From assembly GCF_030268685.1 (NCBI RefSeq), contig NZ_BSRQ01000002.1:372001-436000 (forward strand): a stretch of 64,000 nucleotides of DNA, given 5' to 3'. Source of the stretch: Microtetraspora sp. NBRC 13810. GTDB lineage: Bacteria > Actinomycetota > Actinomycetes > Streptosporangiales > Streptosporangiaceae. Below are positions 11,345 through 55,234 of this stretch, one piece after another; position 1 is the first letter of the stretch; every line of letters starts with the position of its first letter. A model generated the notes under the pieces. The model saw only the letters and a list, made by a program, of their open reading frames with translations, did not search any database and had not been told where the DNA came from. The position numbers and the translations under genes were made by a program.

Positions 11345-12232
11345 ATGGAAACCGCGATGAGACTCACGGACGTGCGGAAACGATACGGCGGGGTAGCCGC
11401 CCTGGACGGCGTCGACCTGGAGATCCGCCCCGGGGAGACGGTGGCCGTGCTCGGCCCCAACGGGGCGGGCAAGACGACGCTGCTGTCGGTCGCCCTCGGC
11501 CTGGTGGACCCCGACGCGGGGACGGCGAGCCTGCTCGGCGGGTCGCCGGCCGCGACCGTCGGGACCGGCCGGGTGGGCGCGCTGTTGCAGGACGGCGGGC
11601 TGATCGACGACGTGCGGGTGGACGAGCTGGTCACCGCCGTGGCGGGGATGTACCCGGCGCCGGTGCCGGTCCACGAGGTGCTCACCGCGGCGGGGCTGAC
11701 GGAGTTCGCGACCCGGCGGGTGCACGGGCTGTCCGGCGGCCAGCGGCAGCGGGTCAGGTTCGGCCTCGCGCTGGCCGGTGACCCCCGGCTGCTCGTCCTG
11801 GACGAACCGACCGTCGGTCTCGACGTGGAGAGCCGCCGCGCCCTGTGGCGGCGGGTGCGCGAACGCGCGGCGCTGGGACATACGGTGATCTTCTCGACGC
11901 ACTACCTGGCCGAGGCCGCCGACAACGCCCACCGGATCGTCCTGCTGGCCCGGGGGAAGGTCATCGCGGACGGCGACGTCGCGCGGATCACCTCCATGGT
12001 CGGCGACGGCGAGGTGCGGTTCCGGCTGGACGGGGCGGACCGCCAGGCGCTGAACCGGCTGCCCGGCGTGCACGCCGTACAGGTGGACGGGACGGCGGTC
12101 ACCCTGACGACGGGCGACCCGGACGCCACGCTGCGCGCGCTGTTCGCCGCGTACGACGGCGTCCGGGGGGTGCGGACGGCCGGCGCCGACCTGGAGACCG
12201 CGTTCGTGCGGCTCACGGGAGGGGAGCTGTGA
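11345..12232 (+). CDS. ABC transporter ATP-binding protein
   Basis: 295 residues, the ATPase of a two-component ABC-2-type exporter. Visible motifs are Walker A GPNGAGKTT, the signature LSGGQRQR, Walker B LLVLDEP, and the H-loop in FSTHYLAEA. The C-terminal 70 residues form the extension typical of drug or lipid exporters. Its TGA overlaps the ATG of the permease by one base (TGATG). The start could be ATG 11345 or, four codons on, ATG 11357. With the kinase and regulator downstream it forms a four-gene unit, so the exporter is likely controlled by its own two-component pair. Confidence 0.95.
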   Translation: METAMRLTDVRKRYGGVAALDGVDLEIRPGETVAVLGPNGAGKTTLLSVALGLVDPDAGTASLLGGSPAATVGTGRVGALLQDGGLIDDVRVDELVTAVAGMYPAPVPVHEVLTAAGLTEFATRRVHGLSGGQRQRVRFGLALAGDPRLLVLDEPTVGLDVESRRALWRRVRERAALGHTVIFSTHYLAEAADNAHRIVLLARGKVIADGDVARITSMVGDGEVRFRLDGADRQALNRLPGVHAVQVDGTAVTLTTGDPDATLRALFAAYDGVRGVRTAGADLETAFVRLTGGEL

Positions 12233-12954
12233 TGGGCTCGCTGCTGCGGCTGGAGATCGCCAGAACGTTCCGCAACCCGGTGAGCATGGTCTTCCTGATC
12301 GGCTTCCCGCTCGCCCTCTACCTGCTGTGGACGAAGGTCCTCCCGGTGTCCGCCGGCACCGGGATCACGGACTTCGCCGCCTACTCCATGGTGTCGATGG
12401 CCACCTACGGCTCCCTGGGCGGCGCGCTGTTCATCGGCGGCGCCATCGCCCTGGAACGCACCGGCGGGTGGCTGCGCCAGCTCGCCGTGACGCCGCTGCC
12501 CGGCCACGGCTACGTCGTCGCCAAGCTGGTCGCCGGCATGCTGGGCGTGCTGCCGAGCATCGTCGCCGTACTCGCCGCGGGCGCGGCGCTGGGCGGGGTA
12601 CGGCTGGCCGGGACGACGTGGGTGGTCCTGGTGCCGCTGATCTGGCTGGGCGTGCTGCCGTTCGCCGCGCTGGGCGTCGCCCTCGGCTACTCGCTGGCGG
12701 GGCAGTCCGCCAACATGGCGATGATCGTGGTCTACTTCGGGCTGTCGGTCCTCGGCGGCCTGTGGGTGCCGGTCGAGGCGCTGCCGGACGGGTTGCGGGC
12801 CGTGGCCGAGTACAGTCCGGCGTACCAGGCGGGGTCGCTGGGCTGGCGGGCGCTGGACGGGCTCGCGCCGACCGGTACGGCGGTCGCCGTGCTGGCCGGC
12901 TGGACACTGTTGTTCTGCGCGCTGGCGGTGTGGCGCTACCGGCGAGCCCTGTGA
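12232..12954 (+). CDS. ABC-2-type transporter permease
   Basis: 240 residues with six predicted membrane spans, typical of ABC-2 permeases of the drug-exporter group. It pairs with the ATPase just upstream through a one-base stop/start overlap. The segment ALERTGGWLRQLAVTPLPG after the second span matches the cytoplasmic coupling helix seen in this family. The substrate is unknown. Context: the DesK-like kinase follows 19 bases downstream. Confidence 0.93.
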   Translation: MGSLLRLEIARTFRNPVSMVFLIGFPLALYLLWTKVLPVSAGTGITDFAAYSMVSMATYGSLGGALFIGGAIALERTGGWLRQLAVTPLPGHGYVVAKLVAGMLGVLPSIVAVLAAGAALGGVRLAGTTWVVLVPLIWLGVLPFAALGVALGYSLAGQSANMAMIVVYFGLSVLGGLWVPVEALPDGLRAVAEYSPAYQAGSLGWRALDGLAPTGTAVAVLAGWTLLFCALAVWRYRRAL

Positions 12955-12973
12955 CGATCGGGTGGGAGGACGG

Positions 12974-14116
12974 ATGTGGCCACAGGAGTCGATGATCCAT
13001 CGCGGCAGGCGGTTGCTGCGGGTGGCGTCGCTCCTGTGGCTGCTGCTGCTCTGCTGGCCGCTGGCCGTGTTCCTCGGCGAAGGGCCCGGCCCCGCCGAGA
13101 TCGCCTGGGCGCTCGCCGCCTCCGCCGGGCTCGCCTGCTGCTGGCTCCGGATCAACTGGCGGGCGCTGAGCGTGCTGGGGATGCCCCTGCTGCCGTGGGA
13201 ACTGGCCGGGCTGTGCGCCGCCGTGCTCGCGCTGTTCCCGGTGCTCGGCCACCGCTGGGCCTACTGCTCGTTCCTGTTCGTCGTGTCCGCGCTCGCCATG
13301 CTGCCCGGGTGGGTCTTTCACGCCGGGGTGGCGGCGACGGCGGCCGTGGAGGTGTCCGCGCTGCTCGTCTTCGGCGTCCCGGTCGCGGACTTCTGGTGGG
13401 TGCCGGTGCTGGTCGTGGTCCAGGCGACGGTGGTGCGGGCGCTGCTCGGCATGGGGAGGCTCGTCCACGAGCTCGCCGCGGCGCGGGCCGAGGTCGCCCG
13501 GCTGGCGGTGGACAACGAACGGCTGCGCTTCGCCCGTGACCTGCACGACATCCTCGGCCACACGCTGACCTCGATCACGATCAGGAGCCAGTTGGCCGCC
13601 CGGCTGGCCCGGCGCGACGCCGAACGGGCCGCCGCCGAGATGACCGTCGTCGAGCACACGGCCCGCCGGGCGCTCGACGAGGTACGGGACGCGGTCGCCG
13701 GCTACCGCGCCCTGTCCCTGCCGGACGAGCTGGACAACGCCCGGCACGCCCTCGGCGGCGCCGGGATCAGCTGCGAGGTGGCACCGCCGGGTGATCCCGT
13801 CCCGGTCCTCGCCGAGTCGCTGCTCGCCTGGGCCGTACGGGAGGGCACCACCAACGTGCTGCGGCACAGCGGGGCCGGCCGCTGCGCCATCTCGGTCCGC
13901 GTCGATCCCGCGCAGGCCAGCGTGGAGGTCCGGGACGACGGCCCCCGCACGAGCCGCCCGGCGGACGCGGCCGGCGGCCCGGAGCCGGGCCGGCGGGGCA
14001 ACGGGCTGACCGGCCTGGCCGAGCGGGTGGCGGTGGCCGGGGGCACACTGGACGCGGGACCGCTGCCCGGCGGTGGCTACCGGCTGCTCGCCCGGATACC
14101 GCTGGAGGCGCGATGA
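12974..14116 (+). CDS. DesK/NarX-type sensor histidine kinase
   Basis: About 380 residues. Five to six hydrophobic segments fill the first 150 residues, then the HisKA_3 dimerisation helix with RFARDLHDILGHTLT; the His of LHDILGH is the phosphorylation site. The ATPase domain shows the N-box REGTTNVLRHS, G1 VRDDGP and G2 GNGLTGLAERV. ATG 12974 has GGGAGGA just upstream; GTG 12962 is an alternative. The 3' end is the first unit of a tandem repeat, and its TGA overlaps the ATG of a repeat-encoded mini-ORF rather than the regulator directly. Confidence 0.93.
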   Translation: MWPQESMIHRGRRLLRVASLLWLLLLCWPLAVFLGEGPGPAEIAWALAASAGLACCWLRINWRALSVLGMPLLPWELAGLCAAVLALFPVLGHRWAYCSFLFVVSALAMLPGWVFHAGVAATAAVEVSALLVFGVPVADFWWVPVLVVVQATVVRALLGMGRLVHELAAARAEVARLAVDNERLRFARDLHDILGHTLTSITIRSQLAARLARRDAERAAAEMTVVEHTARRALDEVRDAVAGYRALSLPDELDNARHALGGAGISCEVAPPGDPVPVLAESLLAWAVREGTTNVLRHSGAGRCAISVRVDPAQASVEVRDDGPRTSRPADAAGGPEPGRRGNGLTGLAERVAVAGGTLDAGPLPGGGYRLLARIPLEAR

Positions 14117-14232
14117 TCCGGCTGCTCGAGCGGATACCGCTGGGGGGCGCAGTGATCCGGATGCGCGCCCGAGTACCGCTGGAGGCGCTGATCCGGATGC
14201 GCGCCCGGGTACCGCTGGAGGCGCGGTGATCC
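14082..14232. repeat. Four tandem 36-39-bp repeats at the kinase/regulator junction
   Basis: Units run 14082-14119 (38 bp), 14120-14158 (39), 14159-14194 (36) and 14195-14232 (38). Each contains the element TACCGCTGGAGGCGC or a near copy, followed by TGATCC. Unit 1 codes for the end of the kinase including its stop; unit 4 contains the start of the response regulator. The array looks like repeated duplication of an original overlapping stop/start junction. Confidence 0.9.
14113..14229 (+). CDS. Repeat-encoded mini-ORF bridging kinase and regulator genes
   Basis: 38 codons. The ATG (14113) overlaps the kinase TGA as ATGA, and the TGA (14227-14229) overlaps the regulator GTG as GTGA. The product is a repetitive basic peptide with three copies of an I-R-(L/M)-x-x-R-(I/V)-P-L pattern. 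It is probably a by-product of junction duplication that keeps ribosomes moving from kinase to regulator; a function for the peptide itself is not supported. Each unit also carries a GGAG sequence near the internal start-like codons. Confidence 0.45.
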   Translation: MIRLLERIPLGGAVIRMRARVPLEALIRMRARVPLEAR

Positions 14233-14819
14233 GGGTGCTCATCGCGGACGACCAGGACCTCGTGCGCGGCGGCCTGGCCGCGCTGCTCGGCCTGGAGGAC
14301 GACATCGAGGTGGTGGCCGAGGTGGGCCGGGGCGACGAGGTGCCGCCCGCCGTGGCCGCCCACCGCCCCGACGTCGTGCTGCTCGACATCGAGATGCCCG
14401 GCCTGTCCGGACTGGAGGTCGCCGAACGGCTGACCGGCTGCCATGTGATCATCGTCACCACCTTCGGGCGACCCGGTTACCTGGGCAGGGCGCTGCGCGC
14501 GGGCGTCGCGGGCTTCGTCGTGAAGGACGCGCCCGCCGCCGAGCTGGCCGGCGCCGTACGGCGGGTGATGAACGGCGAGCGGGTGTTCGACCCCAGGCTC
14601 GCGGCCACCGCCCTGACCGTGGGCCCGAGCCCGCTGACCGCCCGCGAGGGCGACGTGCTGCGGGCCGCCGCGGACGGCGCGACGGTGGCCGACATCGCCC
14701 GCCGGCTGTTCCTGACCGAGGGGACGGTCCGCAACTACCTGTCGTCGGCGATCGGCAAGACGGGCGCCCGCAACCGCGCCGAGGCCACACGCGTCGCCGA
14801 GGCCCGCGGCTGGCTCTGA
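14226..14819 (+). CDS. NarL/LuxR-type response regulator
   Basis: 197 residues from GTG 14226, the first codon that gives a complete receiver domain (VIRVLIADDQDLVRGG). The phospho-acceptor Asp is in VVLLDIEMPGLSG; Lys of VVKDAPA is the conserved switch residue. The C-terminal LuxR helix-turn-helix is LTAREGDVLRAAADGATVAD with TEGTVRNYLS. It is the partner of the DesK-like kinase and probably controls the adjacent ABC exporter. A frame open from 14073 is only the repeat array read through. Confidence 0.95.
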   Translation: MIRVLIADDQDLVRGGLAALLGLEDDIEVVAEVGRGDEVPPAVAAHRPDVVLLDIEMPGLSGLEVAERLTGCHVIIVTTFGRPGYLGRALRAGVAGFVVKDAPAAELAGAVRRVMNGERVFDPRLAATALTVGPSPLTAREGDVLRAAADGATVADIARRLFLTEGTVRNYLSSAIGKTGARNRAEATRVAEARGWL

Positions 14820-14956
14820 CCAGCGGGCCTTCTCCTCGGCCGCGTCGTCAGCCCCGTCGTCGGCCGGGGCGTCGGCCACGGCACCGGCCGCGTCCGCCGC
14901 CGGGTGTGCCGCCGTCGTGCCGGGACAGGGAGTGCGGCTCTGAGTAGATTTGACCG

Positions 14957-24774: not shown

Positions 24775-27700
24775 TTACCGGGCCGATGGAAGATGCGCTT
24801 AACCACCGGTTTCGTCTTAGCGATGATACCGGGGCTGACGGGTGTTTACGGAACGCCGGCGTGGGGGGAATCGGCGGCTTTCTCGGTCTCTCTTCCCGGT
24901 GTGGTCGCGCCAGGAGGTCCGATACCGGTGCAGGCGCTGGGATCGGCGAGCCGGCTGGGGTCGTCGACCTCCACCACGCGCTCCGCCTCGGCACCTGCTG
25001 ATGGATGGGGGACAGATCCGCAACCGCCGAGTGAAGCTGTTCCGGTGGAGGAACGCGGTGCGCCGGGCCCCGCCCCGGAGGGGGATCCGGTGGGTGAGGG
25101 CTTGCCGTCGGGGGTACGCCGGGCGGAGGCGGCGGACGCCGTCGCGGCGGCTCCGGCGTTGATCGATGTGTATCCCAAGCATGGTTATCTGGTGGATTCG
25201 CTGACCCCGGCGTTGCGCGCGTGGGGACAGGGTGGATCAGCGCTGTCGTACAACTTCAAGATCTGCGACGTCGAGACGATGTCCGGGACCGGGTGCACCA
25301 CCTCGCCATATCTCGGGCAACCGCAATACCTGGAGCGTTCCAGGCGGCAAGCTGAAGTGGGGTACCCAGTACTGGTGGACGGTCACAGTACGGGACTCAT
25401 CGAGCCTGACCACGACTTCGCCCGTGTTGTCCTTTGTGACCGGTGTTCGTCAGCCGGCGGTCAACTCTCAGTTGGCCGAGGCGGGCGTCAAGGGACTGGG
25501 TTTCGATCAGCAGTCGGGTAACTACACCACGACGGCTACCGATCTGACGGTCGCCTCCGCTGGTCCGCCGCTGTCGGTGGTGCGGACGTACAACAGCTTG
25601 GACCCGCGCACGGACGGCATCTTCGGGGCGGGATGGTCGACCCGCTGGGACATGAAGATCGTCAAGGAGACGCGCGGGACGTCGGTCTCGGCGCTGGTGA
25701 CGAACCCGGACGGTCGTCAGGTGCGGTTCCGGTCCAATGGGGACGGAACGTTCCAGCCGCCGCCGGGTATGTTCGCCACCCTCGCCGAGCAGACCGGGGG
25801 GACCTGGCGGCTGACAGACAAGGCGGCCACGACGTATCTGTTCGACGCGCAGGGCCGGTTGACGAAGGTGACCGATCAGCGTAACCGCAGCCAGGACCTG
25901 ACCTATGCCGCCGGCGGCAAGCTGGAGAAGGTGACCGCTGCCGGCGGCCGGGCGCTGCACTTCACCTGGACCGGTGACCACGTGGGGTCGGTGGCGAGTG
26001 ACCCGGTGAACGGTACCGCCCTGACGTGGACCTACACCTACGACGGCAACCGGCTGGTGCAGGTGTGCGCGCCGGTCGCGGCCCCGAACTGCACCTCCTA
26101 TGAGTACGGCACCGGATCGCAGTACCGCAGTTCCGTGCTCAACTCTGATCCGTTCGGCTACTGGCGGCTGGGCGAGGCCACCGGCAGCACGGCCACGGAC
26201 CTGGGTACCGGCGCCGGAAACGCCACCTACCAGTCGGTGACCCTCGGCCAGCCAGGAGCGTTGACCGGGACCACGGACACATCGGCGCGCTTCGCCGCCG
26301 GCTCGGCGATGAAACTCCTAGACAACACGATCCCGCACCTGGGCGACCAGCTGTCGGTGGAGACGTGGTTCAAGACCGGCCAGTCCGGTGTGCTGATGGC
26401 CGCGGGCACTCAGCAGACCAGCGGCATCGCCCGTGGCCCCATGCTGTATGTGGGCACCGATGGCAAGCTGCGCGGCTCCCTGGACGCCGTCACCGCGCCG
26501 ATCACCTCGGCTGGGGTGGTGAATGACAACGCCTGGCACCATGTGGTGCTGACTGTCGCCGGAGCGGAGCAGAAACTGTTCCTCGACGGCCAGCAGGTCG
26601 GCACGATCAATGGCCAGGTGTCCGCCTGGCGGCAGTTCGCCACGGTCGGCAACGGCGTCGCCGTCTCCGCCACCTCGCCGGCCGTTCCCTCCGGTACCGC
26701 GGCGTTCCCGTTCCAGGGCCAGATCGACGAAGTCGCGGTCTATGGCACGCCGCTGACGGCGGCTGAGGTGCAGGCGCACTACGCCGCCCGTGCCGAAGTG
26801 CCGCACAAGCTGACGAAGGTCACTCTCCCTTCTGGGCGGGTGCAGGCGGTCAACACCTACGACGAGCGCACCGACCGGCTGGCCACCCACGTCGACAACA
26901 ACGGCGGCACCTGGAAAATCGGCGCCCTGTCGGCAGTCGACGAGTGGGGTGAAGCCGAGGTCAAGGTGACCGACCCACACAACGAAACCCTGACCTACCT
27001 CTACGACGCATGGCGCGGCTACCGCATCCGCGGCGAGACCGACCAGCTCCTCAAAACGACCTGGTACGAGTACACCCAGGCGGGGTTCCTGACCAAGGTC
27101 ATCGACCGCAACGACATCCCCAACGACATCTACCAGGACGAGCGTGGCAACCAAATCGGCCACAAGTACTGCCGGGCGCCCGGCGAGTGCGCGATCGAAT
27201 TCTGGACCTACTACCTGAACGAGGACGACCCGTTCGACCCGCGCAACGACCGGGTGACCGAGTACCGGGACGGCCGGTCCGACGACGAGGACGACAACAC
27301 CTACCTCACCCGGTATGAGTACAACCAGTACGGCGAACGGACGAAGGAGACCACCCCGGCCACCCCGGACTTCCCCAACGGCCGCTCCACCACCTACACC
27401 TACACCGATGGCACCGAACCCGCCGCCGGAGGCGGCACCACCCCGGCCGGGCTGCCCAAGTCCAAGACCGCACCCAACCAGGCCATCTGGAGCTACAAGT
27501 ACACCGCCGCAGGCGACCTCGCGGAACAGGTCGAACCCGAAGGCCTGACCACGACGTTCGACTACGACGTGCTCGGCCGGGCGACGTCCAAGACTCAGGT
27601 GTCGGACTCCCAGCCGGACGGGGTGAAGACCACCTTCACCTACGACGGCCGCGGACGGGTCCTGACCGAAACCGGCCCCGGCGTGAAGAACGAAATCGCC

Positions 27701-30700
27701 AACGTCACCCACACCGCGCAGACCCGCTACACCTATGACCCGGACGGCAACAAGCTGACCGACACCCGGGCGGACCTCACCGGCGGCGACGCGGAGCGAG
27801 TGACCACCTACACCTACGACGACTACGGCAGGCTCGCCAGCACCACCGACCCCGAAGGCGGCGTCACCCGCCAGGAATGGAACCACCGCGGCTGGATCAC
27901 CCGCACCACCGATCCACGCGGCGCGATGATCGATCAGGCATACAGCAAGCGCGGTGAGCCGACCGTGCGCACTCTGAAAGGGTGGACCGGCAGCCCGGTG
28001 GCCCCGCAACCGGCCACCGACGTGACGCTGGAAACGCGCACGTACGACAATGGCGGCCGTCTCGCCTCGACGACCGACGCGATGAACCGCAAGACCACCT
28101 ACACCTACTGGATGGACAACCGGCTGTCGCAGAAGATCGGCGACAACGTCAAGCTCAACGGCGCCACCACCACCCGCGATGTCGTCCTGCAGGATGACGT
28201 CTACGATCCGGCTGGGAATCTGACCGAGCAGACCACCGGCGGCACCTCCACATCCACGCACACGCCCACCCGCATCGAGTTCGACTATGACGCCGCCGGG
28301 CGTCTGATCTCACAGAGCTTGGACCCGTCCGGACTGGATCGAACGGTCGCTCTCGCCTATGACGCCGTCGACAACCCGATCAAGGTCACTCGCGCCGGAG
28401 CGGGAAGTAGCAGAACCGAAGTCACCCAGTCCATCTACAACAAGACGGGACAAGTCACCCGCGAGACCATCGAGAACGGCACCGACGACCTCGTCACCAC
28501 CGCCACCTACGACGATCGCGGCCTGCTCACCTCAATCACCGACCCACGTGGCAACACAGGTGGTGCCGCAACTGATTTCACCACCAACCTTCGTCATGAT
28601 GCCTCCGGCCGCCTGGTGGAAGCGATCGCACCGCCGGTACAGGTCGACAAGTCGGGCCACGCCACCACGGCTCAGCCCATTAGTCGTTTTGGCTACAACG
28701 CCACGGGCGAAGAGACCCACATCACCGATTCTGAGGGCCGCACACGGACCACGAGTTTTGATAAGGCCGGTCGAATTGTCTCTACCACTGTCCCGGCTTA
28801 TGCACCGCCCGGTGGCATCCCCATCACACCAACTTTTCGAAGTACCTATGACGACGCTGGTCAGTTGATCAGCACCACCGATCCCCGCGGCTACAGCACG
28901 ACCTACGAGTATGACGCTCTCGGCCGGCAGGTACGCGTCACCGACCCCACGCCACAGGGCCAGACGCCAGGCCGCTGGGTCAAGGAGTACGACTTGGTAG
29001 GCGAAGTGCTCGCCACCGTTGACCCGAGCGGGGCCCGCATCGAGGCTACCTATGACGACCTCGGTCGTAAGATCACCGAAACTACGATCGAGCGGACGCC
29101 AGCCACCGCGGCCTACATCACGAAACTGGAATACAACGACGCTGGCTTCTTGATCAAGAGCACCGCACCAGGTCCAGGTAACAGGAGCACCGGCTACCAG
29201 GTCAACCCCGCTGGCGAGATCACTGATGTAACCGATCCGCTTGGCCACAAGACAACCTCGTTGTACGACCTGGCCGGACGTCTCACCAGAGTGACCGATG
29301 CGCTCTTCAACGCCACCACGATCGACTACGATCTTGCCGGACGTAAGGTCACGACAAAGGACCTGAATGCCTCCGGTGTGGTGCAACGTACCTATAGTTA
29401 CGGCTACGACGCCGCTGGCAACCAGACCAGTGTCACCTCTCCAGAGGGGCACGTTACTCGGAAAGCGTTCAACGCTCTTAACCTGCCCACCTCTCAAGTC
29501 GAACCCGTTTCGGCCACCGAGTCGATCACGATCAGCTTTGGCTACGACGCCACTGGCGCCCGAACCCGCCTTACCGACGGCCGTGGTAACACCACCTGGA
29601 CCAGCTACAACACCCTCGGCCTGATCGAAACGACTACCGAGCCCGCGACCACGGCTCACCCCGATCTCGCTGACCGCACTTGGACAAGCGTCTATGACGC
29701 GGCAGGTAACGAGACTGCGACGATTCAACCCGGCGGAGTACGAATCGACCGCACTTTCGACCACCTGGGCCGCCTAACCGCCCAAACTGGAACGGGCGCG
29801 GGAGTCGCCACCGCTGACCGAGCCTTCGGCTACGACCTGGTCGGACGAGCCACCATCATCGGCGACTATACGGTCGAGTACAACGATCGCGGCCTGCTCA
29901 CCAAGGTCACCAAGGCAGGCATCCAGGAGACCGCAGTCAACTACGACGCGCTTGGTAATCCCGCCCAGCGGGCCGACGCTTCGGGCACAGCCACCTTCAC
30001 TTGGGACAACGCAAACCGTCTGGCCACCGCCACAGATCCCGTAGCCGGCCGCACCCTCACCTACGGCTACGACAACGCCCACCGACTCACCTCCCTCACC
30101 GCCACCGGCCAGGCCAGCACCCAAATCTTCGACTACGACTCAATGAACCGACTCACTGCTCATACCCTGCGCGGTGCTACTGGAGCGCAGCTGGCGAAGA
30201 TCTCTTACGGATGGGATAAGGACGACAACCTCACCTCCAAGGACACAATTGGCTTCGCTGGAGCGGGTAGCAATACCTACAGTTACGACCATTCTGGGCG
30301 TTTAACTTCTTGGACCAACCCTGCCGGAGTTACCGCCGCGTACGAATGGGACGCTGCCGGTAATCGTACCAAAGCTCACAACGCGGCCTTCGTCTACGAC
30401 CAGCGAAATCGACTTACCTCGGGTGATGGAACCACCAATACATATACTCCTCGTGGCACCCTGTCCTCTCAGACTAAGGACGGCACCACTCAGAGTCTGA
30501 CTTTCGATGCCTTTGACCAGCTCATTGCCGACGGCGAAGCCACTTACAGTTATGACGCCTTGGGTAGAATGACGAGCCGGACTAAGGCGGGCGCCCACCA
30601 AAATTTCATATACAGCGGCCTAAGTAACTACATGTCCGCTACCACTGACCTCGCCGGCGTGGTGCGCTCTAAGTATGCCCGCGATCCCTTTGGAGAATTA

Positions 30701-32164
30701 CTCGGCGTCCAGGAAAGCGGCACAGTTGCGGCTGGCGCGCTGACAGACTTACACGGTGACCTGGTCGCTACCTTTTCTGCCGCAGCATTGATCAACTCAG
30801 CGGCCTATGATCCGTTCGGCCAGGTCGCGGCCAAAACCGGGGTACAGCAGGCTCTCGGCTACCAGAGTGGGTATACCGACCCGGACACCGGGAAGGTCAA
30901 CATGCATTCCCGGTGGTATCAACCCGGCACGGGAGGCTTCGCCTCCCGTGACACTCTCACTCTCGATCCCAGTCCGAGCGTTCAGGCCAATCGTTATACC
31001 TATGCCAACGCGGCACCACTTACCGGAGCCGACCCAAGTGGCCATGCCACGTTGAACGTTATCGTCGGCTACGGCTCCAACCCGGCTGGCTTTTCCTGTG
31101 ACTATTACTGTCAAAACGCCCCAAATACTCCGACTCCCGAAACTCCCATCGTGACACTCGGGTTTAACGGCCTACCGGGTCACGAACTCGAGTACAACTC
31201 CCAGATTCTAGATATTCGAGAATGGACCGCCAAGCAAGCCGGTGTCATGCTTGACGGCACGCCACTGCCAAAGGGAATGAGCGATTTCTGGGACCGCCAC
31301 AGTTACGAGCGCGATTTCTTCGTTATGAACTACAGGCCAAACATGAGCGAAGAAGGAGCTTCTTGGCTCTGGGGTACGATCAAAACCACCGATCTCGCCA
31401 CGATCGATGCTTGTCTTCAGGGGTGCGGCGGCGGAAAGATCGATACTTGGCAAGAATGCAAGAAGATTCATGGCGCAAAAATGTGCGAGGCGATGCGTCA
31501 GACCGTTGCAACAACTCAGCTCGCGCAAGCCTTCGCCAAGAATTGTCTCACGGAAGCACAGCTCAGAGACCAAAGGAATTACTCCAACTGCCGCGCTATC
31601 TCCACACAACTTGGCATAAAGGGTAAAGTGTGGGGCGACATGATGGTCGCAAACTTCAAGGATAGCGCACTTTATAAGGTTCTCGACTTAATTGTCGGAG
31701 ATGCAACGCGTTGCGCAGATGGCTATGTGACCAATTGCCTTCTTATGGCAATCACGGTAGCCGGCGGAGCGGCCGTCAAGGGAATTCGAATAGCAGGAAA
31801 AGCCGTACCCAAGTTAACCCAAGTATCGGCCGGACTCGCATCCGCATGTAGTACAAAATGCGACTGGGCTAAAATTAGCGGTATCGTTCGCGGGGCAGCT
31901 CAGGGGAAGGGAAACTTTGGCGTCGGTGTTGGCACGCGCGCAGAAGCGAGACTGGCAGGCGAAGCGTGGGTGGGCTCCGGCTACAGGACGGTAGTGAACA
32001 AGGAAGGGAAGGAAGTTTGGATTAGCGCAGACAATATGCGTCAGTATCGCCCTCCCAGCAACAAAGATAAGATAGGAAAAGTTCAAGCGAACTTCGAGTC
32101 GAGGGTGCCGGGGCAACTATCGAAACGCTGGCAAAACAACGGACATCTGGACATTGTGGATTAG
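24748..32164 (+). CDS. RHS/YD-repeat polymorphic toxin, with one frameshift near 25.31 kb
   Basis: Frame 1 runs from ATG 24748 with a signal peptide (basic start, then LTTGFVLAMIPGLTGVYG) to GTGCTTS at about 25308; frame 2 continues from about 25318 (GNRNTWSVPGGKLKWG) to 32164. Apart from this break the sequence is continuous and about 2,470 residues long. Order: secretion signal, Ig-like segment, DUF6531 region (SVVRTYNSLDPR), a LamG-like domain (about 26150-26800), many YD repeats, the RHS core ending GYQSGYTDPDTGKVNMHSRW and SGH, then a variable tip. The tip ends RQYRPPS, QANFESR, WQNNGHLDI, a pattern I associate with polymorphic-toxin tips; its activity is not known to me. The immunity gene starts 3 bases after the stop. 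Confidence 0.85.
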
Positions 32165-44280: not shown

Positions 44281-45747
44281 GTGAACCACCCGCACGTCCT
44301 TCTCGACGGCGACCACCTCACCTGTGCCCAGGTCTACCAGGTGGCCGTCGCCGGGGCCCGGGCCGAGGTCGGCGACACCGGCCGCGCCCGGGCCGCATGG
44401 CAACTGGCCGCCACGCTTCCCGGCCCCGTGTACGGCAGGCACACCGGTGTCGGGGCCAACGTGGCCGTGATGAGCGAGGACACCGGGCTCCGGGAGAACG
44501 CGCTCGACCTCGACCTGCTGCGCAGCCACGCCGGCGGCGCGGGGCCGCTGATCGACGAGGAGCGCGCCCGCGCCACCCTGGTCGTCCGGGCCAACCAGAT
44601 CCTGCGCGGCGGCTCGGGCATCGACCCCGGTGTCACCCACGCGCTCGCCGACGCCGTCAACCACGGTTTCACCCCGCCCATGCGCACCTACGGGGCCGTC
44701 GGCACCGGCGACCTCGCCGCCCTGGCCACCGCCGCCCTCTGCCTGCTGGGCGAGCTGCCCTGGCGGCAGGCGGGCGGCAGGCCGACCGGCGGGGAGGGCG
44801 GGCCGCGGTTCGCGCTCGGGTACGGCGAGGCGCTGCCGTTCATCAGCTCGGGGGCCGCGACGCTGGGGGACGCCGCACTGGCCTGCCACCGGCTGCGCCG
44901 CCTCCTGACCACCGCGATCTCGGTCGCCGCGCGGTCCTTCGTCGCGGTGGACGCCTCGGTCGAGCCGCTGGCCGCGGCCGTCCAGGAGGGCCGCCCGCAT
45001 CCGGGTCAGGCCGCCGTCGCCACGCTGCTGCGCGCGTCGCTGCCCGTCCCCGGCCCCACCGGCCGGGTGCAGGACCCGTACGGCTTCCGCGCGTTCGCGC
45101 AGGTGCACGGGGCGGCGATGGAGGCGATGGCGCGGGCCGAGCAGGTCGTCGAGGTGGACATGAACGCGGCGGCGGAGAATCCGCTGATCGGCGGCGACGG
45201 GCACGCCTGGCACAACGGCAACTTCCACTCCGGCCCGGTCGCGCTGGCGCTGGACGGGCTGCGCGCGGCCGTCGCGCAGACCGCGGCCCTGAGCGCCGCG
45301 CGGCTGGGCGCGCTGATGGAGCCGCGGTACACCGGGCTGGCGCCGTTCCTCGCCGAGGCCCCCGGGCGGTCCGGGATGATGATCCTGGAGTACGTCGCGC
45401 AGGACGCGCTGGCCGAGTTGCGGTTCCTGGCCCAGCCGGTGACCACGGGCTCCACGGTGATCTCGCGCGGCGCGGAGGACCACGCCGGGTTCGGCACCCA
45501 CGCGGCACGGCGGACGCTGGAGGCGATCCGGCCGCTGGAGGTCCTGCTGGCGTGCGAGCTGGTCGCGGCGATGCGCGCGATGCGGCTGCGCGGGATCCAC
45601 CAGCCCCCCGGCGACCCGGACCTCGACCTGTCCGACCCGCTCGGCCTGCCCGTCCAGGACCACTCGCTCGACGCCGACCTGGAGGCCGCCCGGTTGGCGA
45701 TCAGCCTGGCGGGCGACCGCGAACTCGGCCCCGCCCGAGGCCGCTGA
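44281..45747 (+). CDS. Aromatic amino-acid lyase (HutH/PAL) homologue without the MIO triad
   Basis: 488 residues from GTG 44281. Fold and flanking motifs match: PGPVYGRHTGVGAN (with the active-site Tyr), GAVGTGDLAALA at the cofactor site, NAAAENPLI, and the helical C-terminus. Active lyases have G-S-V-G-A-S-G-D-L-A; Ala-Ser-Gly cyclises to the MIO electrophile. Here one residue is missing and T-G replaces A-S-G (codons GTC GGC ACC GGC GAC), so MIO cannot form by the known route. Ordinary ammonia elimination is therefore unlikely. The stop codon lies in a seven-copy repeat. Confidence 0.85.
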   Translation: MNHPHVLLDGDHLTCAQVYQVAVAGARAEVGDTGRARAAWQLAATLPGPVYGRHTGVGANVAVMSEDTGLRENALDLDLLRSHAGGAGPLIDEERARATLVVRANQILRGGSGIDPGVTHALADAVNHGFTPPMRTYGAVGTGDLAALATAALCLLGELPWRQAGGRPTGGEGGPRFALGYGEALPFISSGAATLGDAALACHRLRRLLTTAISVAARSFVAVDASVEPLAAAVQEGRPHPGQAAVATLLRASLPVPGPTGRVQDPYGFRAFAQVHGAAMEAMARAEQVVEVDMNAAAENPLIGGDGHAWHNGNFHSGPVALALDGLRAAVAQTAALSAARLGALMEPRYTGLAPFLAEAPGRSGMMILEYVAQDALAELRFLAQPVTTGSTVISRGAEDHAGFGTHAARRTLEAIRPLEVLLACELVAAMRAMRLRGIHQPPGDPDLDLSDPLGLPVQDHSLDADLEAARLAISLAGDRELGPARGR

Positions 45748-45852
45748 CCGAGGCCGCTGAACGGGGGCGCCGCCCGAGGCCGCTGAACGGGGCCGCTGAC
45801 CGAGGCCACTGAACGGATGCGCCGCCCGAGGCCGCTGAACGGAGGCCGCTGA
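45736..45852. repeat. Seven copies of a GAGGCCGCTGA motif from the lyase stop onward
   Basis: (C)GAGGCCGCTGA or a close variant is at 45736, 45749, 45775, 45791 (shortened), 45801 (one mismatch), 45827 and 45842. The first copy is the last codons and TGA of the lyase. The array ends just before the leftward LacI gene's stop. Confidence 0.88.
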
Positions 45853-53925: not shown

Positions 53926-55104
53926 GTGACCACCGACGTGTTCGTGCTGGACGCCGTGCGCACGCCCATCGGCAAACTCGGCGGAGCCCTGGCCGGCGTG
54001 CGGCCCGACGACCTGGCCGCGCACGTGGTGCGCGCCGTGACCGAGCGGGCGCCCGACCTGGATCCCGCGCGGATCGAGGACGTCTTCTTCGGCGCGGCCA
54101 ACGGCGCGGGCGAGGACAACCGCAACGTCGCCCGGATGGCCGCGCTCCTCGCCGGTCTCCCCGTCACGGTGCCGGGCACGACGGTCAACCGGCTGTGCGG
54201 CTCCGGCCTGGAGGCGGTCATCGCCGGGTCGCGGGCGGTGGCGGTGGGCGACGCCAGCCTCGTCGTCGCCGGCGGCTCCGAGTCCATGACCCGGGCCCCG
54301 TGGGTGCTGCCCAAGCCGGCCCGCGCCTTCGAGCGCGGCCCGCAGACCATGTACGACACCGCGCTCGGCTGGCGGATGGTCAACCCGGCGATGCCCGCGG
54401 AGTGGACGGTCGCGCTCGGCGAGAGCACGGAGATCCTGGCCGACAGGTACGGCATCACCCGGGAGGCCCAGGACGAGTTCGCCGTGCGCAGCCACCGGCG
54501 GGCGGCGGAGGCGTGGGAGCAGGGCGTCTTCGCCGACGAGGTCGTGCCGATCGCCGGCCTCGCCAGGGACGAGGGCCTGCGTCCCGACTCGACGACGGAG
54601 TCCCTGGCCAGGCTCAAGCCGGTGTTCCGGCAGAACGGCACCGTGACCGCGGGCAACTCCTCACCGCTGAACGACGGCGCGGCGGCGCTGCTGCTCGGCG
54701 ACGAGGCCGGGGCCGCGGGGGCCGGCCGCCGCCCGCTGGCCCGGATCGTCGCCCGCGCCGCCGCCGGGGTGGAGCCGCACCTGTTCGGCATCGGCCCGGT
54801 CGAGGCCGCGCGGACCGCGCTCAAGCGGGCCGGCCTGTCCTGGTCCGACCTGAGCGCCGTGGAGCTGAACGAGGCGTTCGCCGCCCAGTCGCTGGCCTGC
54901 CTGGCGGAGTGGCCCGAGCTGGACCCGTCGATCGTCAACACGCACGGCGGCGCCATCGCGATCGGCCACCCGCTCGGCTGCTCCGGCGCCCGCATCCTCG
55001 GCACCCTCGCCTGGGACCTGCACCGCCGCGGCGGCGGCTACGGCCTCGCCGCCATCTGCGTCGGCGTCGGCCAGGGCCTCGCGGTCGTACTCGAAGGCGT
55101 GTGA
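53926..55104 (+). CDS. pcaF: Beta-ketoadipyl-CoA/acetyl-CoA thiolase
   Basis: 392 residues from GTG 53926 with GGAGGAG upstream. Thiolase motifs: NRLCGSGLEAV with the acyl-carrying Cys91, ELNEAFAAQ, and the end GGAIAIGHPLGCSGARI with the catalytic His and Cys. In the beta-ketoadipate pathway it splits beta-ketoadipyl-CoA into succinyl-CoA and acetyl-CoA; that role is assigned from the neighbours pcaB, D and C. Stop TGA and the next ATG overlap (TGATG), but the ATG belongs to a repeat-encoded mini-ORF. Confidence 0.88.
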   Translation: MTTDVFVLDAVRTPIGKLGGALAGVRPDDLAAHVVRAVTERAPDLDPARIEDVFFGAANGAGEDNRNVARMAALLAGLPVTVPGTTVNRLCGSGLEAVIAGSRAVAVGDASLVVAGGSESMTRAPWVLPKPARAFERGPQTMYDTALGWRMVNPAMPAEWTVALGESTEILADRYGITREAQDEFAVRSHRRAAEAWEQGVFADEVVPIAGLARDEGLRPDSTTESLARLKPVFRQNGTVTAGNSSPLNDGAAALLLGDEAGAAGAGRRPLARIVARAAAGVEPHLFGIGPVEAARTALKRAGLSWSDLSAVELNEAFAAQSLACLAEWPELDPSIVNTHGGAIAIGHPLGCSGARILGTLAWDLHRRGGGYGLAAICVGVGQGLAVVLEGV

Positions 55105-55234
55105 TGACCCGGGATCTCCGCAGGGACGGAAGGCGTGTGATGACCCGGGATCTCCGCAGGGACGGAAGGCGTGTGATGGCCGGGATCTGCACGGGGACGG
55201 AAGGCGGGTGACGACCGGAATGTTCGCGGGGACG
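55093..55234. repeat. Four tandem 35-36-bp repeats at the pcaF/pcaB junction
   Basis: Units start at 55093, 55129, 55165 and 55200. Units 1 and 2 are almost identical; 3 and 4 are diverged. Each begins GAAGGCG(T/G)GTGA. Unit 1 holds the pcaF stop, unit 4 the pcaB start, so the whole junction was multiplied. Confidence 0.9.
55104..55211 (+). CDS. Repeat-encoded mini-ORF bridging pcaF and pcaB
   Basis: 35 codons. The ATG (55104) overlaps the pcaF TGA (TGATG); the TGA (55209-55211) overlaps the pcaB GTG (GTGA). The peptide is two copies of MTRDLRRDGRRV followed by MAGICTGTEGG, strongly basic. It is probably a translational bridge. Same design as the mini-ORF at 14113. Confidence 0.45.
   Translation: MTRDLRRDGRRVMTRDLRRDGRRVMAGICTGTEGG

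Follow-up and report, generated by a model that had tools for sequence, protein, structure and literature searches.

A kinase/regulator gene junction multiplied in tandem, probably by local duplication, in Microtetraspora

The locus and its repeat array

The window is a stretch of 64,000 nt from contig NZ_BSRQ01000002.1 (positions 372,001 to 436,000, forward strand) of Microtetraspora sp. NBRC 13810, whose genome is an 8.97-Mb draft in 114 contigs (GCF_030268685.1). All positions are those of the window unless stated otherwise. The locus is a two-component pair: by Pfam, a sensor histidine kinase (12962..14116; HisKA_3 and HATPase_c) adjoins a response regulator (14226..14819; Response_reg and GerE), both encoded on the forward strand. 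We take the pair to be of the NarL/DesR type. The kinase could also start at 12992, where it is placed by the home-made codon-usage caller with which gene starts were set. Genes for an ABC ATPase (11345-12232) and an ABC-2 permease (12229-12954) lie just upstream of the kinase on the same strand. Elsewhere in the window, the caller reports a single gene of about 2195 codons (25577-32164), within a 20-40 kb stretch that holds many gene-caller gaps.

Kinase and regulator are separated by a tandem array. Tandem Repeats Finder places it at 14080-14240, with a period of 38, 4.3 copies, 83% matches and a score of 208. This is far above chance: when the whole window was dinucleotide-shuffled 20 times, the best score at a period of at least 20 was 91. 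The original prediction of four units of 36-39 bp is upheld, the lengths being 38, 39, 36 and 38 bp. All units lie on the forward strand. (i) Unit 1 (14080..14117, 38 bp) is the native kinase tail and carries an SD-like GGAGG and an ATGA junction. (ii) Unit 2 (14118..14156, 39 bp) has a GTGA junction, and GGGGGG replaces GGAGG. (iii) Unit 3 (14157..14192, 36 bp) has its junction reduced to CTGA, with loss of the start codon. (iv) Unit 4 (14193..14230, 38 bp) carries an SD-like GGAGG and a GTGA junction, the GTG of which is the regulator start. A fifth, partial copy, CCGGGTGCTC (14231..14240, forward strand), is the native regulator head. GGAGG is present in units 1, 3 and 4. Owing to the lost start codon of unit 3, NTGA with a usual start is found only in units 1, 2 and 4; the claim that each unit repeats the junction stands for these and fails for unit 3. 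Pairwise unit identity is 74-92%, units 3 and 4 being most alike (35/38) and units 2 and 3 least (29/39). Since unit 1 and the fifth, partial copy are native (the tail of the kinase coding sequence and the head of the regulator, respectively), the net insertion amounts to three units, or 113 bp, and the kinase-regulator gap is 109 nt. The stop-containing end of the kinase gene recurs at shifts of 39, 75 and 113 (scores 21.0, 21.6 and 37.0), within 260 nt downstream, and the array belongs to the gene-end tandem duplications, a class defined in this analysis.

A mini-ORF of 38 codons (14113..14229, forward strand) bridges the kinase stop and the regulator start. At ATGA 14113-14116, the kinase TGA (14114-14116) overlaps the mini-ORF ATG at 14113. 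At GTGA 14226-14229, the mini-ORF TGA (14227-14229) overlaps the regulator GTG at 14226. Both hand-offs are NTGA overlaps of -4 nt. This succession of overlap, 38-codon ORF and overlap had been proposed beforehand and is borne out by the coordinates; as a predicted layout read from sequence, the coupling of kinase to mini-ORF to regulator is confirmed. The mini-ORF has no Pfam match, and its peptide probably has no function of its own. An extension of the regulator back through the array was also considered. That frame is open to GTG 14073, but the codon lies inside the kinase gene; no other ATG, GTG or TTG occurs in the frame before 14226, which makes an extended regulator unlikely.

Origin of the array

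In the 100 genomes searched, the closest regulator orthologues are those of G032 (84% identical) and G003 (73%). Since kinase and regulator overlap in both by a plain 4 nt, with no repeat array, the array was most likely derived in this lineage, to judge from these orthologues. Among 29 relatives' loci, the gap is -4 in 17, -1 in two and 5 to 242 in the other 10, some of these larger gaps stemming from mis-set starts or from another gene taken as the neighbour. A single named-genome scan with the kinase yielded 28 distant loci, with best segments 23-38% identical, which were left out of the comparison.

The array would be explained by local tandem duplication of a gene junction with translational overlap, a reading to which we assign a probability of roughly three in four. 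Two 10-mers, CCGGCTGCTC in the kinase tail and CCGGGTGCTC in the regulator head, are alike at 9 of 10 places. They encode R-L-L and R-V-L, respectively, in register, and would lie 38 bp apart without the insertion. The proposed mechanism is as follows. (i) The ancestral kinase and regulator genes would have overlapped by 4 nt (NTGA). (ii) Replication would have slipped between the near-identical CCGGCTGCTC at 14080 and CCGGGTGCTC, its presumed slippage partner. (iii) With both 10-mers in codon register, and with a frame shift of -1 imposed by the 4-nt overlap, the unit length would necessarily be 3n-1, here 38. (iv) Every exact copy would then be a short cistron, starting on the previous stop and stopping on the next start, so that a duplication of 3n-1 across NTGA would give rise to the hand-off, and to a bridging ORF, by itself. 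(v) Later indels of 1 and 2 bp, yielding the lengths 39 and 36, would have fused three units into one 38-codon ORF. (vi) The merged ORF would still terminate on the regulator GTG. Against slippage it counts that the case for it comes from a 10-bp near-repeat and that no intermediate copy numbers were seen. The mini-ORF that bridges kinase and regulator is probably a largely automatic outcome of local DNA duplication.

Gene-end copies and selection on the hand-off

The frequency of such duplications was estimated in a census of 1.236 of the 8.97 Mb of the source genome and of 0.4 Mb each of G030, G081 and G032. The census was limited to genes of at least 240 nt, since the mini-ORF, called as a gene, had hidden the present array. 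A tandem copy of the stop-containing end is found within 260 nt in 46 of the 2005 genes sampled: 29/1009 in the source genome, 7/336 in G030, 8/311 in G081 and 2/349 in G032. A cross-gene null, which ignores local composition, gave 0/707 at that score. Convergent ends, which have no start to serve, make up 22 of the 46; inside called genes lie 80 of the 127 arrays with a period of at least 20 in the first 0.8 Mb of the source sequence. Tandem duplication thus occurs generally here and is not caused by coupling.

Junction copies were also found at other loci. A second junction array in the window (55093..55234, forward strand) consists of 36-bp units and leads from a thiolase gene to a Lyase_1-family gene. 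Here a second mini-ORF, of 36 codons (55101..55211, forward strand), bridges the thiolase stop (55102-55104) and GTG 55208, which is overlapped by the mini-ORF TGA. This GTG is in frame with the downstream gene and was taken by hand as its start; the gene caller places the start at 55220. Among 59 other kinase/regulator loci, eight have a tandem repeat with a period of at least 15 within 250 nt upstream. Inspection of 10 of the 59 assigned the repeats of L037, L034 and L065 to the kinase coding tail; these are not junction copies. L032 (G030, reverse strand) carries an independent 77-bp duplication of the kinase/regulator junction upstream of the regulator, with a bridging ORF of 26 codons. 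L014 (G081) has its kinase/regulator junction duplicated over 24 bp, some 60 nt upstream of position 1501, and the regulator is thereby lengthened in frame. Five 24-bp junction steps lie on the reverse strand of G000 C2, between a called gene that ends at 226905 and one that begins at 227022. All five share the frame of the downstream gene, which could therefore start at any of several GTG codons.

Two gene-end arrays of the window may be recorded here in their own right. At 45737-45852, the 3' end of an aromatic amino acid lyase gene is arrayed in tandem, stop included, facing a convergent gene. At 843-942, 42-bp tandem copies of a PfkB-family gene end, stop included, are followed by a stretch that by eye resembles an inverted repeat and then by a convergent gene.

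Eight junction arrays were used to examine the hand-off. Six were named by rule: the present array, two from G030, and two from C1 and one from C2 of the source genome, the last built of 24-bp units that add an in-frame extension. The thiolase/lyase array was added with its hand-set start, and L032 was picked by eye from the 10 of 59 loci inspected. L014, likewise noticed by eye, was left out. At a score of at least 11, the pair listing holds 19 pairs, of which six are among the eight; the other 13, which either copy only the stop or show weak similarity, were left out, and one of these, a G032 pair, has an unbroken chain by the loose rule. One G032 'stop+start' array that is counted in the array census was also left out of the junction set. 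The loose rule accepts a next start from -4 to +4 nt from the stop; the strict rule accepts NTGA only.

A possible but doubtful alternative is that arrays at overlapping junctions survive only with an unbroken hand-off, the phase of the unit being selected. The chain is unbroken in all eight junction arrays by the loose rule and in 6/8 by NTGA only, as against 34/229 and 28/229, respectively, of array-free pairs that lie 70-140 nt apart, and as against 2/10 of codirectional arrays in which the stop alone is copied (loose rule, gap 20-250). The fair null is a re-phasing of the units of the same arrays, because a stop, and often a start as well, comes with each junction copy. With a random frame for each unit, the loose rule retains the chain in 44-100% of versions over the eight arrays, and the chain of the present array survives in 44% of versions, which is the probability of its being kept by chance. 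Against this null, 8 chains are kept where 5.5 are expected by the loose rule (P 0.044), an excess that leaves room for selection; the result depends on the rule, with 6 against 4.1 for NTGA only (P 0.087) and 6 against 4.6 for NTGA or TGATG (P 0.23). For the six rule-picked arrays, the product of the loose-rule fractions, multiplied by hand, is about 0.10. The phases of the first shifts point both ways. Over phases 0, 1 and 2 they are even at convergent ends (8, 7, 7), as selection on coupling would have it, but they are uneven (8, 2, 8) in codirectional stop-only arrays too, which by the classification used serve no start and whose bias coupling does not explain; a phase bias at junctions alone would therefore not mean coupling. 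There is at best a hint of selection for the coupled layout. The suggestion that the unit lengths imply such selection did not hold up, for a 3n-1 duplication across NTGA recreates the hand-off by itself, and 44% of re-phased versions keep it.

A related proposal is that junctions tile themselves: a duplication would usually yield a coupled mini-cistron or an in-frame extension, and chains of translated copies would grow in high-GC operons, with selection pruning the copies that break phase. We advance it tentatively, as something that would rather surprise us if it held throughout.

Expression, known systems and meaning

MIRUs were reportedly described in the mycobacterial senX3-regX3 intergenic region by Supply et al. 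in 1997. As far as passages of the sources cited below reach, they are the closest precedent, in which tandem units likewise separate the gene of a histidine kinase from that of its response regulator. The likeness extends to the hand-off: passages of PMC12548453 describe a MIRU repeat ORF coupled to the downstream gene by a -4 nt overlap, the spacing also observed in the present array. The differences are equally clear. MIRUs are interspersed, appear mobile and, in the passages available, have units of 77 and 53 bp at senX3-regX3, whereas the present unit copies the local junction and is not found in full anywhere else in the genome. The unit has 41 matches in the whole 8.97-Mb source genome, and only the locus itself is matched at full length. 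The other 40 matches cover 16-57 nt (E 2e-4 or worse), the best two at the starts of other regulator genes. Copies at many genome loci, the mark of MIRU dispersal, are thus not found, and for this reason the array is not classed as a MIRU. What is new relative to MIRUs is that the junction itself has been multiplied.

The array may bear on translation of the regulator. Reinitiation almost vanishes at gaps of about 20-38 nt in Haloferax and Escherichia coli, according to passages of PMC10666635, and with a bare gap of 109 nt the regulator should therefore no longer be coupled to the kinase. Two ordinary -4 overlaps would let the mini-ORF close this gap. After completing the kinase, a ribosome could re-initiate twice, first on the mini-ORF and next on the regulator. 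The regulator may also start without coupling, from its own GGAGG in unit 4. A scan for sigma-70-type sites, the one type covered, found no promoter-like site of that kind in 12900-14900. A structured leader was tried and set aside: the stability of the 14060-14280 fold exceeds that of shuffled sequences only mildly (z -1.67; 8/200 at least as stable).

By analogy with mycobacterial repeats, array copy number might vary between strains and set the kinase:regulator ratio. There is precedent for such tuning: in passages of the respective sources, the copy number of promoter tandem repeats varies within Mycobacterium tuberculosis populations (PMC12817950), and the MIRU make-up of senX3-regX3 differs between strains H37Rv and CDC1551 (PMC4213456). 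The senX3-regX3 region can also drive senX3-independent expression of regX3 in M. tuberculosis, according to passages of the latter source, whereas the scan of the present locus gave no sigma-70-type promoter-like site. That result, together with a unit identity of only 74-92%, which speaks against recent rapid turnover, makes tunable expression improbable here. Insertion of a MIRU-like mobile element at the start codon, followed by its multiplication, is more improbable still, for all its likeness to the MIRU layout of PMC12548453, where the repeat ORF meets the downstream gene at -4 spacing: the unit is not dispersed in its own genome, and no foreign sequence is needed, since the unit consists of kinase tail and regulator head.

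Local duplication of the junction can be set beside two further systems. Each hand-off in the present chain is an ordinary -4 overlap, like those of the NTGA termination-reinitiation pairs treated in passages of PMC10666635 and PMC12548453; unlike in those pairs, the overlap has been multiplied, which adds a cistron built of junction copies. Passages of PMC9879509 describe tandem repeats in archaeal Borgs whose first unit lies within or partly within gene ends, and the repeat regions thus begin in a gene end, as here. Borgs differ in being extrachromosomal elements of archaea, and the same passages mention no copied stop/start junctions. In the open-access literature, among the matches listed and in the passages they gave, tandem copies of a stop/start junction are described only for MIRUs, which is not proof of absence elsewhere.

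These arrays suggest a simple rule for the tolerance of overlapping-gene operons to the growth of repeats at a junction. Since the duplicated unit brings a stop, a start and a ribosome-binding site of its own, both proteins remain intact and ribosomes are often still handed on. Unit phase, compared between junctions on the one hand and re-phased arrays and convergent ends on the other, offers a clear genome-wide test of selection on translational coupling. Junction duplication would, in addition, be one way for new short translated ORFs to arise.
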